From a virus, in IMG/VR virus record IMGVR_UViG_3300030451_000521, positions 1-40,367 of that record: a stretch of 40,367 nucleotides of DNA; one strand, given 5' to 3'. The position numbers were made by a program, and so were the translations under genes. Positions 8,799 through 39,050 of this stretch are shown piece by piece (the first letter of the stretch is position 1; each line of letters begins with the position of its first letter). Below the pieces are notes generated by a model. The model made no database searches, was not told the DNA's origin, and was given only the letters and a program-made list of their open reading frames with translations.

Positions 8799-10551
8799 TT
8801 TGTAATGTATATATTTTAATCGGCTTTTCTTTGCCTTTTACAAAAATACTATCAAGTTCTTTTAACATAATTTGATCGCTAAAGCTACTTGCACTGATAG
8901 TATCATAACCTATTACAATATCTTCTCCAACATCCTTGGTTGAGCTTTCAAGCCTTGCTGCAAGATTAACAGCATCGCCGATAGCAGAATAATCAAACCT
9001 AGTATCGCTACCCATGTTACCCACAACAGCATGACCAGTATTAACACCTAGTCCTATTTCAATACCAAGATCAGCTTTTTTAATATTGTCTTGTATTTCT
9101 TCAGCACATAATACTGCTACAGTTTCGTGATTTGGTAAATCTATCGGTGCATTAAATATGGCCATCATAGCATCGCCAATATACTTATCTACCATGCCAC
9201 CGTATTTTTTAACTGCATCAGCTTGTATGGTTAAAGCTTTGTTCATAATTTTAGTTACTTCTTCTGGTTCTAGTTTTTCTGACATAGCAGTAAAACCTCT
9301 AACATCTGTAAATAAAAAAGTGCAATATCTTTTTTCACCACCTAACACTAGAGAACTAGGATCGTCTTGTAATTTCTTTACTTGGCGTGGATCAAGGTAA
9401 TGTTCAAACTGTTTCTTAATCTGCTGTCTTAGTTTGTATTGTTGTCTGAATCTTAAGTAAAAAGCTATTGATCCTGTTATAAATTCAGATACTAAAGTCC
9501 AAGATACATCTACTAACAAACCTTGTTTAATCATGTAGACACCACCCAAACCTGTAACTAACATAAATACAGTAGCGATAGATACTCCCCATGTAATGCC
9601 AAAGTAATGCAATACAAACCAAACCAAACTAACAAATATTATTAAAATTAAAAGCTCTGCTGCTAATGACCAGTCAGGTATGTATGGTGAATCCTCTATT
9701 AGTATAGATTCAGCAAGTGCAGTTTGTATTTTATGTGGCTCTAAAAGTCCAACAGGCGTGGCTACTTGTGGCATGACACCGTTTGCTGTTACCCCTACAA
9801 ACACAAACTTACCGTTGACATTCATTTCTTGTAAATCTGTTTGTGATGTGTCAACCCAACTAATCCACTTACGACCAAGACTATCTGTTTTAATTGGTGG
9901 TATTCCTCTGATTGATATTTCTTCTATACCATTATCATTAGTTTTTATAATATAAGTTTTTACATCAAACAAAGATTTATATATTTGTGTACCAAAACTA
10001 GGTATCCATTCGTTATTTGGTGTTTTAACTAAAAGAGGTATTTTACGAACTAATAAATCTATATCAGTAGGAGCAATAGCCAAACCTTGTAGAACATGAT
10101 TGGATAGTAGAGGTAGGTTTGACTTTACTCCTGTAGAGAGTATACCACCATTATCATCACCAAGTACAACAGTTCCAGGTGATGTAGGATAATCGCCTTT
10201 ACCATCTTCAAACATGGCTATAACAGAAGGAGCGTATCCTAATGATCTGGCAAAGTCTTCATCACCGCCCATTCTATCTGCTTGTGGAAAGCTTATAACC
10301 CAACCTACACCTAAAGCACCTTTACCTATTATGTCTAGTTGTATTTCTGCTAATCTTTGTCTAGGCAAAGGCCAACCGCCCTCACGCTCTACATCTTCTT
10401 CAGTTATGTTAAGTATGACAAAGTTACCTGATGGCTTTGGTGTTTCTATAAACTTATCAAAAGTTTTTAGTTTTAATATTTCTGTAGGAGTGCTTTGAAA
10501 CAATAATGGTAAAGCTAGTATTATAAGTATTGGTAATAATAGTCTTTTCAT
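8791..10551 (-). CDS. CHASE2-domain transmembrane class III adenylate cyclase
   Basis: The 586-residue protein has an N-terminal membrane anchor (about 3-18) and a periplasmic CHASE2 sensor domain (about 25-285; segment ILNITEEDVEREGGWPLPRQ is typical). Three transmembrane helices follow (about 297-367), then the linker HYLDPRQVKKL and a class III cyclase domain (about 400-580). Catalytic features are intact: metal-binding D416 in FTDVRGFT and D460 in GDAMMAIF, adenine-selecting K456 and D526, and the transition-state pair N529 and R533 in NLAAR. It should make cAMP at the inner membrane in response to a periplasmic signal. The FecR gene ends at the adjacent base, and FecR-CHASE2 cyclase pairs occur in bacteria. 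An intact signalling cyclase in a phage late operon is unusual. Confidence 0.93.
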   Translation of the reverse strand: MKRLLLPILIILALPLLFQSTPTEILKLKTFDKFIETPKPSGNFVILNITEEDVEREGGWPLPRQRLAEIQLDIIGKGALGVGWVISFPQADRMGGDEDFARSLGYAPSVIAMFEDGKGDYPTSPGTVVLGDDNGGILSTGVKSNLPLLSNHVLQGLAIAPTDIDLLVRKIPLLVKTPNNEWIPSFGTQIYKSLFDVKTYIIKTNDNGIEEISIRGIPPIKTDSLGRKWISWVDTSQTDLQEMNVNGKFVFVGVTANGVMPQVATPVGLLEPHKIQTALAESILIEDSPYIPDWSLAAELLILIIFVSLVWFVLHYFGITWGVSIATVFMLVTGLGGVYMIKQGLLVDVSWTLVSEFITGSIAFYLRFRQQYKLRQQIKKQFEHYLDPRQVKKLQDDPSSLVLGGEKRYCTFLFTDVRGFTAMSEKLEPEEVTKIMNKALTIQADAVKKYGGMVDKYIGDAMMAIFNAPIDLPNHETVAVLCAEEIQDNIKKADLGIEIGLGVNTGHAVVGNMGSDTRFDYSAIGDAVNLAARLESSTKDVGEDIVIGYDTISASSFSDQIMLKELDSIFVKGKEKPIKIYTLQNG

Positions 10552-35857: not shown

Positions 35858-35887
35858 TTGTAATGTGTCTATAAATAATGTTATAAT
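35858..35887 (+). promoter_or_regulatory. Rightward early promoter P1
   Basis: TTGTAA (35858-35863) and a perfect TATAAT (35882-35887) are 18 bases apart, a good sigma70-type promoter. It lies about 45 bases before the first early ATG. The spacer and -10 context GTGTCTATAAATAATGTTATAA closely resemble those of promoter P2 (37341-37370), so the two are probably read by the same factor. Confidence 0.72.
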
Positions 35888-35931
35888 AACTTTGTTATTA
35901 ATTAACAGGCGTGAGCCAAGGAGAACTTAAA

Positions 35932-36237
35932 ATGAAAATTGATAATAAAGAGATACAAGATCTTAATAAACTTGCAAAGCGATTAGTATTGAATCTTGTA
36001 TCAGAACTTGAGGATGATATTCATCAGACCACATTTGGAAATATGGATATTGAATCAGAACAGGCTAGAGAGTTTCTCAAACAAAAAAAGGGAATCGAAC
36101 TCAGCCATGTTGAAGCAATTTTGCTAAACAAGAATATTAGATTCGAGTTAGCTAAAATTGAAAGTGTGCTAAAGAAACAGTTGGGCGAACAGGAAATATC
36201 CAAGTATCCAACCAAGTCAATGTTTGGCATTAATTAA
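35932..36237 (+). CDS. Early protein of unknown function (101 residues)
   Basis: The start is set at ATG 35932 because a GGAGAACTTAA ribosome box (35920-35930) lies just before it; the same box precedes the next gene. A GTG 21 bases upstream is in frame but would place that box inside the coding sequence. The protein begins MKIDNKEIQDLNKLAKRLVL and looks helical and charged (REFLKQKKGIELSHVEAILL). It is the first gene after P1 and is followed directly by a terminator. No family recognised; first-expressed phage genes often inhibit or redirect host functions. Confidence 0.7.
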   Translation: MKIDNKEIQDLNKLAKRLVLNLVSELEDDIHQTTFGNMDIESEQAREFLKQKKGIELSHVEAILLNKNIRFELAKIESVLKKQLGEQEISKYPTKSMFGIN

Positions 36238-36276: not shown

Positions 36277-36293
36277 GATCTGAAAATCAGATC
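36277..36293 (+). repeat. Hairpin element GATCTGAAAATCAGATC, copy 1
   Basis: A perfect 7-base inverted repeat with an AAA loop. It starts in the T run of the preceding terminator and ends two bases before the AAGGAGAACTT ribosome box of the next gene. An identical hairpin occurs at 36596-36612. It may be a processing or stability element that defines the 5' end of the next message, or an antitermination site. Confidence 0.75.
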
Positions 36294-36308
36294 AAGGAGA
36301 ACTTAAAA

Positions 36309-36563
36309 ATGGCTATAAAAAAATATAATACGGCTAGGGAATATTTAGACGATGACACAATTACAAGTGCTAATCAAATAGCTTGGAATACTTTAGAAAG
36401 TGAAGAGCTCTCTAATGGTATGACAGTCTACGATCATTTGGAAGATGTGCCAGAATCTGATCCGAGAACCTTTATGTTTATGAGAAGGAATTTAGGTTTA
36501 ACTTCTGATGAAGCTGTAAAGGTTTTAAACCTTTGGCAACTTGATAAAAAGTTTCCAGAATAA
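36309..36563 (+). CDS. Early protein of unknown function (84 residues)
   Basis: The product begins MAIKKYNTAREYLDDDTITS and has a helical, acidic body with NQIAWNTLESEELSNGMTVY, DHLEDVPESDPRTFMFMRRN and a final KVLNLWQLDKKFPE. The ribosome box GGAGAACTTAA is identical to that of the first early gene. The gene is flanked by a terminator plus hairpin on each side, forming a self-contained unit. No family recognised. Confidence 0.7.
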   Translation: MAIKKYNTAREYLDDDTITSANQIAWNTLESEELSNGMTVYDHLEDVPESDPRTFMFMRRNLGLTSDEAVKVLNLWQLDKKFPE

Positions 36564-36595: not shown

Positions 36596-36612
36596 GATCT
36601 GAAAATCAGATC
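36596..36612 (+). repeat. Hairpin element GATCTGAAAATCAGATC, copy 2
   Basis: Identical to copy 1 at 36277-36293 and again wedged between a terminator T run and an AGGAGAACT ribosome box. Identity of non-coding sequence across two junctions implies selection or recent duplication of a whole expression cassette. Confidence 0.78.
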
Positions 36613-36627
36613 TAGGAGAACTAAACA

Positions 36628-36942
36628 ATGGAATATAAATCAGATAAAGAAAGAGCTGAAGCATTTTTAAAAGATTGGTTTCCTAAAGGAAGCACGGCAC
36701 ATACAACAGTTGTTCATGTCGCACAATCTGGTATGAGTAGACACATAAAAGTATTTGCTATTTCTGGAGAACGAATACAGAATGTCAGTTATCATGTCTC
36801 TAAATTACTTAACTGGAGACTTACAAAAAATGATGCTGTTTTTGTTAGTGGTTGTGGTATGGATATGGGGTTTCATTTGATCTATACACTATCAAGCAAA
36901 TTGTATGAAGACGGCTACGCAATAAAGCAATCTTGGGTATGA
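36628..36942 (+). CDS. Conserved early phage protein (104 residues)
   Basis: The protein begins MEYKSDKERAEAFLKDWFPK and contains TTVVHVAQSGMSRHIKVFAI, DAVFVSGCGMDMGFHLIYTL. I recall the HV-x-x-SGMSR and GGCGMDMGFHLVY blocks from conserved small proteins of many phages; no function is known. The ribosome box is AGGAGAACTAAACA. Promoter-like boxes of the candidate small RNA begin 14 bases after its stop codon. Confidence 0.78.
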   Translation: MEYKSDKERAEAFLKDWFPKGSTAHTTVVHVAQSGMSRHIKVFAISGERIQNVSYHVSKLLNWRLTKNDAVFVSGCGMDMGFHLIYTLSSKLYEDGYAIKQSWV

Positions 36943-36955
36943 TCATAGCCACCTA

Positions 36956-36984
36956 TTGCAAATCAATAACCGAAAAGGTATCAT
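36956..36984 (+). promoter_or_regulatory. Candidate promoter of the small RNA
   Basis: TTGCAA (36956-36961) and TATCAT (36979-36984) are 17 bases apart, a moderate sigma70-type promoter with ideal spacing. The predicted start near 36990 coincides with the first base of the perfect hairpin at 36990-37009, which supports it as a dedicated small RNA promoter. Confidence 0.55.
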
Positions 36985-36989
36985 TCGGT

Positions 36990-37063
36990 CATCTATATAT
37001 CTATAGATGTTAAGTTCTCCAAACTTAGATACAACTAAGGGAGCTGAAAAGCTCCCTTTTTTT
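36990..37063 (+). ncRNA. Candidate small RNA with anti-Shine-Dalgarno segment
   Basis: From a predicted start near 36990 the RNA would be about 74 bases. It has a 5' hairpin CATCTATA/TATC/TATAGATG (36990-37009), an unpaired segment that begins TTAAGTTCTCC (37010-37020) and runs to about 37036, and a terminator hairpin with a 7-base T run (37037-37063). The TTAAGTTCTCC segment is an exact 11-base complement of the ribosome box GGAGAACTTAA of the two genes at 35932 and 36309. It pairs over 8 bases with the box of the gene at 36628 and over 7 with that at 37402. The architecture is that of bacterial trans-acting small RNAs that block translation. Expression is not shown by sequence alone. Confidence 0.6.
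37037..37063 (+). terminator. Rho-independent terminator ending the small RNA
   Basis: AAGGGAGC (37037-37044), loop TGAAAA, GCTCCCTT (37051-37058), T run to 37063. The stem arms are identical to those of the capsid terminator at 24943-24970 although the loop differs, so the phage reuses one stem sequence. Confidence 0.88.
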
Positions 37064-37098: not shown

Positions 37099-37229
37099 AC
37101 GCCAAAGGTCGCACATTTCAAATCGCACGCAATAGGTCGCAAAATCTTATAAGAACGCAGAAGGTCGCACATTTTTAGAACGCAACAGGTCGCAAATTTT
37201 ATTTAGAACGCAAAAGGTCGCAAGTTTTA
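37099..37229 (+). repeat. Five iteron-like direct repeats (ACGCAnnAGGTCGCA)
   Basis: Units start at 37099, 37127, 37155, 37180 and 37208 (spacings 28, 28, 25 and 28). Each carries ACGC(A/C)nnAGGTCGCA followed by (A/C)A(A/G)T and a T-rich tail. The CGCA half-sites within a unit lie 10 bases apart, one helical turn, and the units are spaced regularly, as in protein-binding iterons of replication origins or in operator clusters. AT-rich DNA follows (37261-37390). A further degenerate GGTCG appears at 37246. Function is inferred. Confidence 0.75.
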
Positions 37230-37340: not shown

Positions 37341-37370
37341 TTGAACTTGTGTCTAAAATAGTGTTATAAT
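37341..37370 (+). promoter_or_regulatory. Rightward promoter P2
   Basis: TTGAAC (37341-37346) and perfect TATAAT (37365-37370) are 18 bases apart. The sequence GTGTCTAAAATAGTGTTATAAT closely matches P1. It lies 32 bases before the ATG of the downstream operon and right after the iterons, so repeat-binding proteins could affect it. Confidence 0.75.
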
Positions 37371-37401
37371 TATCTTGTATTTAATTTAAAGGAGAACAAA
37401 T

Positions 37402-37599
37402 ATGAATATTAAATTTACAGACAATGAACTTTCATTATTGAAAGGGTGTTTTGATATGAATAGTGGCGACACTTACGCAAGAGGAACATTATTTCCACAA
37501 TGGCTTAAAGAAGATTGTAATCTTACTGAAAAGCAAACAGAAAAATTATTTGAAAGCATAGACAAAAAATTTACAAAATGGATAGGGGAGGAAAAATGA
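37402..37599 (+). CDS. Early hypothetical protein (65 residues)
   Basis: The protein begins MNIKFTDNELSLLKGCFDMN and ends KLFESIDKKFTKWIGEEK. An AAAGGAGAAC ribosome box precedes the ATG. The N-terminal pattern (INLN/KFTDNEL) is like that of the next two proteins (RINLNEKELAML, NLSTKELAIV), suggesting three related small proteins in a row. It is the first gene after P2. Function unknown. Confidence 0.68.
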   Translation: MNIKFTDNELSLLKGCFDMNSGDTYARGTLFPQWLKEDCNLTEKQTEKLFESIDKKFTKWIGEEK

Positions 37600-38486: not shown

Positions 38487-38627
38487 ATGAAACTTAAACA
38501 AGAATGGAAACTATTTAAACAAGACTTCAAGCGACAAGCTAAAGAAAGTTTTATGTTTAGATTTAATTGGTATGTGCTAAAGCCTATCGCTTTAGTGCTT
38601 GTAATAATCGCTTTAATTATTTTATAG
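38487..38627 (+). CDS. Small membrane protein (46 residues)
   Basis: ATG 38487 to TAG 38627 encodes MKLKQEWKLFKQDFKRQAKE, a basic amphipathic segment, followed by one C-terminal membrane helix (about 31-46, KPIALVLVIIALIIL). An AAGGGGGAG ribosome box lies 5 bases before the ATG. A small early membrane protein could act in superinfection exclusion or inhibit a host membrane process; this is inferred from topology only. Confidence 0.62.
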   Translation: MKLKQEWKLFKQDFKRQAKESFMFRFNWYVLKPIALVLVIIALIIL

Positions 38628-38639
38628 GAGGACTTAAAA

Positions 38640-39050
38640 ATGGGTAATAGAGCAGTAATAACAATAAAAGAAGAAAACACACCAAAAGAAGATTGGAGCT
38701 CGTTATATCTTCATTGGAATGGTGGGCGAGATTCAGTCGAGCCTTTACTCCATGTAGCCAAATTGTATGGGGTTAGATGTCAAGTTGATCCAAGTTATGC
38801 GATAGCAAGACTATCACAAATAACAGGAAACGCATTAGGTGGAACACTATCTCTTGGGGTAGGCACTTATAAACAGCTTGATACTAATAACTTTGATAAC
38901 GGAGTTTATGTTGTCCAAGATTGGGAGATAGTCGATAGAGAATTTGAACCACCATACGAACAACAAGAGTATGACTTCAACGAAATGGTCGCAGAAATTA
39001 GAAGTAAAAATGACCATGTCTTTGGTTATGAGGAGAAAGCAAATGGATAG
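38640..39050 (+). CDS. Conserved phage protein (MGNRAVITI family)
   Basis: The 136-residue protein reads MGNRAVITIKEENTPKEDWS, then LYLHWNGGRDSVEPLLHVAK, ARLSQITGNALGGTLSLGVG and NGVYVVQDWEIVDRE. I recall this order of blocks from a small protein found in many phages; its function is not known. A TAGGAGGACTT ribosome box precedes the ATG. It overlaps the next gene by eight bases. Confidence 0.78.
   Translation: MGNRAVITIKEENTPKEDWSSLYLHWNGGRDSVEPLLHVAKLYGVRCQVDPSYAIARLSQITGNALGGTLSLGVGTYKQLDTNNFDNGVYVVQDWEIVDREFEPPYEQQEYDFNEMVAEIRSKNDHVFGYEEKANG

Follow-up and report, generated by a model that had tools for sequence, protein, structure and literature searches.

A candidate phage small RNA and the coevolution of its seed with early-gene ribosome sites of the same phage

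Genome setting of the locus

Does the stretch at 36956-37063 of this virus genome encode a small RNA, and if so, is it aimed at ribosome sites of early genes in the same genome? The window, by which we mean the whole stretch of DNA analyzed, is a virus record of 40,367 bases. Its minus strand carries the genes for the portal, the major head protein, the tail spike and the terminase, and its plus strand from ~35.85 kb onward forms the early region. The terminase is 59-62% identical to its homologs in pelagiphage HTVC027P, phage 023Pt_psg01 and phage DSL-LC04; thus, the host is likely a marine bacterium.

Two early promoters on the plus strand, TTGTAA-18-TATAAT (35858-35887) and TTGAAC-18-TATAAT (37341-37370), precede the genes at 35932 and 37402, which are the first genes downstream of them. 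Both promoters lie within the same extended element, TGTGTCTA...TGTTATAAT, and may thus respond to one early regulator or represent a strong promoter type used twice. Five iteron-like repeats of the form ACGCA-NNAG-GTCGCA (37100-37222, plus strand, 25-28 bp spacing) are located directly 3' of the small RNA terminator and probably mark a replication origin. Iteron-like CGCA arrays occur downstream of the small RNA in related phages as well.

Anatomy of the small RNA gene

A promoter, a 5' hairpin, a seed hairpin presenting CUCC and an intrinsic terminator are all encoded on the plus strand within 36956-37063. The first-pass annotation had described a promoter-like pair with ideal spacing, a perfect hairpin at the predicted start and a strong terminator, and these three features were recovered as described. 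The σ-70-like promoter (36956-36984) comprises a -35 box TTGCAA (36956-36961), a 17-bp spacer and a -10 box TATCAT (36979-36984). Sites of this type number 24 in the window against 24.4 expected, so that the promoter alone is not above chance; it is credible because it is conserved in relatives. It lacks the TGTGTCTA...TGTTATAAT element of the early promoters and is therefore presumably under different control. An inverted repeat, ACCGAA-N9-TTCGGT, spans the -10 box (36969-36989), is present as a single copy in the window, and looks like an operator for some regulator. In three relatives (L087, L090, and L094) the repeat reads AGCCAA-N9-TTGGCT, both arms having changed together, and it occurs once per genome checked.

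The perfect 5' hairpin CATCTATATATCTATAGATG (36990-37009) lies at the predicted transcription start, 6-7 nt 3' of the -10 box, and shows compensatory changes in relatives. Between this hairpin and the strong terminator the element reads TTAAGTTCTCCAAACTTAG. The seed TTAAGTTCTCC (37010-37020) had been described as an unpaired 11-base segment. Folding places it instead in a stem-loop, TTAAGTT-CTCCA-AACTTAG (37010-37028), in which TTAAGTT and AACTTAG form a 7-bp stem and CTCCA, hence CUCC, is left in the loop. The intrinsic terminator AAGGGAGCTGAAAAGCTCCCTT with its T run (37037-37063; stem at 37037-37058, then seven T) provides the predicted RNA 3' end, and the letters of its stem vary among relatives while the pairing is kept. 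The element folds as three hairpins with a z-score of -5.9, that is, 5.9 standard deviations below shuffles.

Predicted targets in the window

Exact 11-nt complements of the seed are present, as the first-pass annotation had claimed, in the leaders of the genes at 35932-36237 and 36309-36563. Their ribosome boxes, both GGAGAACTTAA (35920-35930 and 36296-36306, respectively), pair perfectly with the seed over 11 bp at -16.2 kcal/mol. A probable third target is GGAGAACTAAA (36615-36625) of gene 36628-36942, with 8 contiguous bp plus flanking pairs (-16.4 kcal/mol), and a possible fourth is GGAGAACAAAT (37391-37401) of gene 37402-37599, with 7 contiguous bp (-12.3 kcal/mol). The leader of gene 38640-39050, absent from the earlier list, is a probable fifth target, as GGAGGACTTAA (38627-38637) pairs over 11 bp with one G-U (-15.7 kcal/mol). 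All five sites are on the plus strand, and pairing has to pay the ~1.5-4 kcal/mol that opening of the seed stem costs. The shorter matches listed earlier at 36628, 37402, 39043, and 39386 do have the lengths given (8, 7, 6, and 6 nt), but the last three amount to little more than GGAGAA, carry little weight and were dropped as evidence. No known function was recognized in the proteins of the target genes.

Within this single genome the seed match is only suggestive (p ~0.006-0.01). The probability of a chance match had been put at 75/4^11 (1.8e-5), yet comparable sequences do equally well against some leader in ~0.6-1% of cases: a match of 11 nt or longer to one of the 14 early leaders is found for 0.58% of 74-base stretches elsewhere in the genome and for 1.1% of dinucleotide shuffles. 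The background is hundreds of times above the estimate because 14 leaders are searched and the composition is skewed. Given the weakness of the single-genome match, the decision had to come from relatives.

Distribution and conservation in relatives

An exact search of IMG/VR for the seed hairpin returned eight further full copies, and an exact search for the 5' hairpin returned the same eight plus one coincidence in coding sequence. The RNA core is identical in all nine sequences (the window and the eight copies), an invariance partly built in because the searches required exact matches. Among them the promoter inverted repeat varies, and two unrelated kinds of gene occur upstream. Since this A-type RNA is unchanged while the upstream gene differs, the small RNA is a unit of its own.

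The bias of exact matching led us to build a covariance model, which was run over loci fetched via neighboring proteins. Diverged copies were obtained with this model, a hairpin-loop descriptor, a terminator-gapped pattern, and a promoter pattern, and the small RNA carriers reached by several search routes number at least ~40 IMG/VR contigs. The diverged copies were assigned to classes A2 (L099), A3 (L301), B (the L186-L203 group), C1 (L110, L325, L334, and others), C2 (L276, L303, L331, and others), and E (L400, L401, and L408), with a probable class D (L121). Their seeds are of at least five types, TTAAGTTCTCC, TTGGGTTTCTCC, TTGTTTTTCTCC, TTAGTTTTTCTCC, and TTAGTTTTCTCC, and probably also ATTTGTTCTCC.

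In every carrier with a readable promoter the -35 and -10 boxes are 17 bp apart and the RNA starts ~7 nt after the -10 box, whereas the boxes themselves differ (-35: TTGCAA, TAGACA, TTTACA, or TTTACT; -10: TATCAT, TATTAT, TAGAGT, TATGGT, or TAATGT). In classes B, C, and E, iteron-like TCGCA copies lie inside the promoter and immediately 3' of it. Promoter spacing and terminator are kept in all classes while the upstream gene varies, as in an independent transcription unit.

The secondary structure is also conserved. Twelve of the 21 base pairs have changed on both sides, a count reached in none of 500 shuffles and far lower in slid structures, although it derives from a model-fitted alignment that leans towards its own structure. 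The seed-stem pairs covary also when read independently of that alignment; counted from the loop, pairs 3-6 alternate between classes as G-C/U-A, A-U/G-C/U-A, A-U/G-C/U-A, and U-A/G-U/G-C. Conserved structure with covariation is what would be expected of a trans-acting base-pairing small RNA. A model built without class E recovers class E, and over 84 sources (856 kb) it reports carriers only.

A near-identity search of the phage collection gave no match to the early region, blastn with the element alone gave short chance matches only, and the small RNA was not found, at this sensitivity, in the three nearest phage genomes examined. Weak model matches in HTVC027P and DSL-LC04 were rejected on reading, and pattern matches in L084, L086, L093, L095, and L388 proved to be chance, as they fall within coding regions or other unrelated sequence. 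When the hairpin scan was relaxed to admit other pyrimidine loops, nothing convincing emerged, and a near-exact scan of bacterial genomes, for class A only, yielded a single coincidence.

Several further features were observed around these loci. A GGC-GNNA-GCC hairpin (GGCGTGAGCC, 35908-35917) lies directly 5' of the ribosome box of the first early gene. Such a hairpin precedes the first early box in most class A phages, reading GGCGAAAGCC or GGCGTAAGCC in relatives, and could stack on the ribosome box or on the small RNA duplex. The palindrome GATCTGAAAATCAGATC occurs at 36277-36293 and 36596-36612, upstream of the boxes of genes 36309 and 36628 and each time just 3' of a terminator-like hairpin. 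Gene 36628-36942 belongs to the phrog_12365 family, to which at least 413 stretches in IMG/VR match; where a contig lacks the small RNA (e.g., L012 and L015), this gene has the box GGAGAAG, not GGAGAAC. The possible sixth class, D, consists of one contig and was left out of the tests (L121, reverse strand, ~9507-9610). It has an open, unpaired seed, ATTTGTTCTCC, and a box, GGAGAATAAAT, that forms 11 pairs with it, one of them G-U; leaders in this contig read GGAGAATAAATT-ATG (11 pairs, one G-U) and GGAGAATAACT-ATG.

Coevolution of seeds and ribosome boxes

Comparison of the seed with the ribosome boxes in related phages had been proposed as a check on the small RNA, and we find that the two change together over five RNA classes, including in an orthologous gene. 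Boxes at gene starts read GGAGAACTTAA in class A, GGAGAAACC or GGAGAAACTTA in class B, and GGAGAAAAAC or GGAGAAAAAT in class C. Exact matches to the A seed that reach 9 nt or more number 11 at gene starts in A contigs and none in foreign contigs; for the B seed there are 12 in B contigs versus 3 in a fourfold larger amount of foreign sequence. Hybrid energies are likewise stronger with own than with foreign leaders for A (p = 1e-4) and B (p = 4e-4), and in the all-leader test of the U-rich class C the difference is not significant (p = 0.2). The true seed assignment was the best of 6, and permutation of contig labels never reached the observed total (0 of 20,000), although this permutation overstates the evidence because contigs of one class are related.

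Classes A2, B, C1, C2, and E share an orthologous early gene (116-120 codons), whose boxes read GGAGAACTTAAC, GGAGAAACC(A/T)AA, GGAAAAACAATT, GGAGATAAGACTAAT, and GGAGAAAACTA(A/G), respectively. Twelve of its 13 leaders pair best with the seed of their own class, and the true assignment ranks first among 120 class permutations, the smallest value that five classes allow (~0.008), as there are few independent seed changes (five or six classes). In class C1 there is no GGAG in the box of this gene, which is nevertheless complementary to the extended seed AATTGTTTTTC over 11 nt.

A promoter search turned up class E only once the hypothesis had been fixed, so that this class is out of sample. Its seed TTAGTTTTCTCC predicts the box GGAGAAAACTAA, which is found in two of the three class E contigs: L400 has GGAGAAAACTAG-ATG and L408 has GGAGAAAACTAATC-ATG, and other seeds match neither beyond 8 nt. 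This prediction and the orthologue test are not as much affected by within-class kinship as the contig permutation. Some leaders break the rule. Those of L187, L334, and L401 (orthologue) pair over only 8-9 nt, and the non-carriers L219, L223, and L225 have GGAGAAACT though no small RNA was seen there. Overall, the seed is complementary to its target ribosome sites, and this complementarity is held by compensatory change.

Alternative explanations

Could the same locus be explained without a trans-acting RNA? It lies directly 3' of a gene and 5' of the iterons, it ends in a strong terminator, and its seed match is not very rare within a single genome, all of which would suit a purely cis-acting element, either the untranslated tail and terminator of the upstream gene or an insulator of the iteron origin. 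The box match would then be a by-product of purine-rich boxes set against pyrimidine-rich hairpins. We regard this as very improbable, as termination in cis does not call for an 11-nt seed, changes in the seed go with changes in unlinked boxes up to several kb away, and in every class the element carries a promoter of its own, its spacing fixed at 17 bp, next to an upstream gene that is not conserved. An RNAI/CopA-like antisense or primer RNA limiting initiation at the iteron origin, with effects on gene leaders that are secondary or limited to a replication gene, is very improbable too. Five iterons directly adjoin the small RNA and iteron-like TCGCA copies recur in or just after the promoter of classes B, C, and E, as such a role might predict, but a terminator stands between the RNA and the iterons, the RNA does not appear to be antisense to a primer or rep leader (no function was recognized for gene 37402), and several unrelated small early genes appear as targets, none of them recognized as a replication gene.

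A CUCC loop alone is able to pair with any GGAG box, and the phage small RNAs lambda PreS and VP882 VpdS set a precedent for action on the host (PMC12197685). The RNA might accordingly have mainly host mRNAs as targets, or mimic an anti-Shine-Dalgarno sequence that titrates a factor, leaving the fit to phage leaders to avoidance or coincidence. This appears highly improbable, since the specificity lies in 5-7 nt beyond GGAG, where phage boxes fit their own seed better than foreign ones. As for a short coding gene, an ATG at 37007 opens a 24-codon frame that runs through the terminator and is open in the window and in L085. The frame has no ribosome box, its ATG is missing from classes B and C, a one-base length difference in L088, L092, and L094 shifts it, and changes preserve helices rather than codons; the alignment of relatives refutes this reading, and its probability is negligible.

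Proposed mechanism

At the level of sequence, the comparisons demonstrate a conserved transcription-unit anatomy, an RNA structure with compensatory changes, and coevolution of seed and targets. We therefore return to a trans-acting RNA, and consider it very likely that 36956-37063 encodes a phage small RNA that masks the Shine-Dalgarno sites of early genes of the same phage and thereby represses their translation. That such an RNA targets early ribosome boxes as a group, as the first-pass annotation had proposed, is supported by the seed-box covariation; we infer its transcription, repression (the switch-off direction) rather than activation, and action after first early expression, and an RNA chaperone may be involved.

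In the proposed mechanism, a free-standing gene would yield a ~74-nt RNA with a protective 5' hairpin, a hairpin presenting CUCC, and an intrinsic terminator, and the 5' arm of the seed hairpin would extend complementarity to the phage's own early ribosome boxes beyond CUCC. The RNA would pair in trans with Shine-Dalgarno regions, strongly with those of 35932 and 36309, probably with those of 36628 and 38640, and perhaps with that of 37402. Pairing would block 30S binding and so reduce the expression of several early genes together, all driven by a promoter type different from that of the small RNA. The operator-like repeat of class A, like the iteron-like copies at the promoters of classes B, C, and E, hints that the timing of small RNA synthesis may be set by a DNA-binding protein of the phage. 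If occlusion is correct, GGAGAACUUAA should be protected in leader RNA and the 30S toeprint should be lost.

A conserved family of small RNAs coevolving with early ribosome sites of the phages that encode them would switch early genes post-transcriptionally, a task commonly attributed to proteins. At least five classes supply matched seed/box pairs that are ready-made orthogonal pairs for reporters, so the mechanism is directly testable without the host, which is probably marine. A tentative and rather unlikely extension is that seed/box pairs form an RNA-based specificity system, in which the RNA of a resident or co-infecting phage silences the early genes of the same group only. This would amount to superinfection immunity by RNA, a counterpart of repressor/operator immunity groups, and seed/box pairs would diverge under immunity pressure.

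Comparison with known systems

Some trans-acting seed RNAs of bacteria, such as RNAIII and RsaE of Staphylococcus, direct CU-rich loops against Shine-Dalgarno sites. The small RNA described here resembles them in its exposed CUCC loop, a short seed over the box, and an intrinsic terminator, but it is phage-encoded and aimed at the phage's own early-gene group; no sequence relation to them was found. Rfam gave no family at gathering score in five loci of other classes and only sub-threshold chance matches in the window, none of them C4; matches to PsrR1 and RT-2 were far below gathering scores and were rejected.

Among phage RNAs, c4 of P1 and P7 pairs near a ribosome site. According to PMC8546580, which cites Citron and Schuster (1992), this ~77-nt RNA acts in trans to repress production of the Ant proteins of its phage. 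The present RNA is of similar length (~74 nt) and would likewise repress proteins of its own phage in trans. On the other hand, c4 is processed from the transcript of its target and acts on one operon, whereas the main targets here lie upstream on the same strand under another promoter. P22 sar, lambda OOP, and aQ also control phage mRNAs by base pairing, sar by interfering with translation initiation (PMC12197685). Unlike the present RNA, which is encoded elsewhere on the same strand as its window targets, overlaps none of them and uses a short seed, these three are transcribed from the opposite strand and overlap fully. Lambda PreS and VP882 VpdS are phage-encoded small RNAs expressed in infection, are Hfq-dependent and are described as acting on host (and some phage) mRNAs (PMC12197685), whereas the predicted regulon here is the phage's own early genes.

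The literature compared describes phage RNAs directed against single phage genes (c4, sar, OOP, and aQ) or mainly against host genes (PreS and VpdS), and in it we found no independently encoded phage RNA directed at the early ribosome sites of its own phage as a group. Because the two c4 features tested are absent, we do not place the small RNA in the c4 family and instead regard it as a new variant among trans-acting base-pairing RNAs, distinguished from c4 by a separate promoter and terminator, by several unlinked targets, and by group-specific seed/box types.
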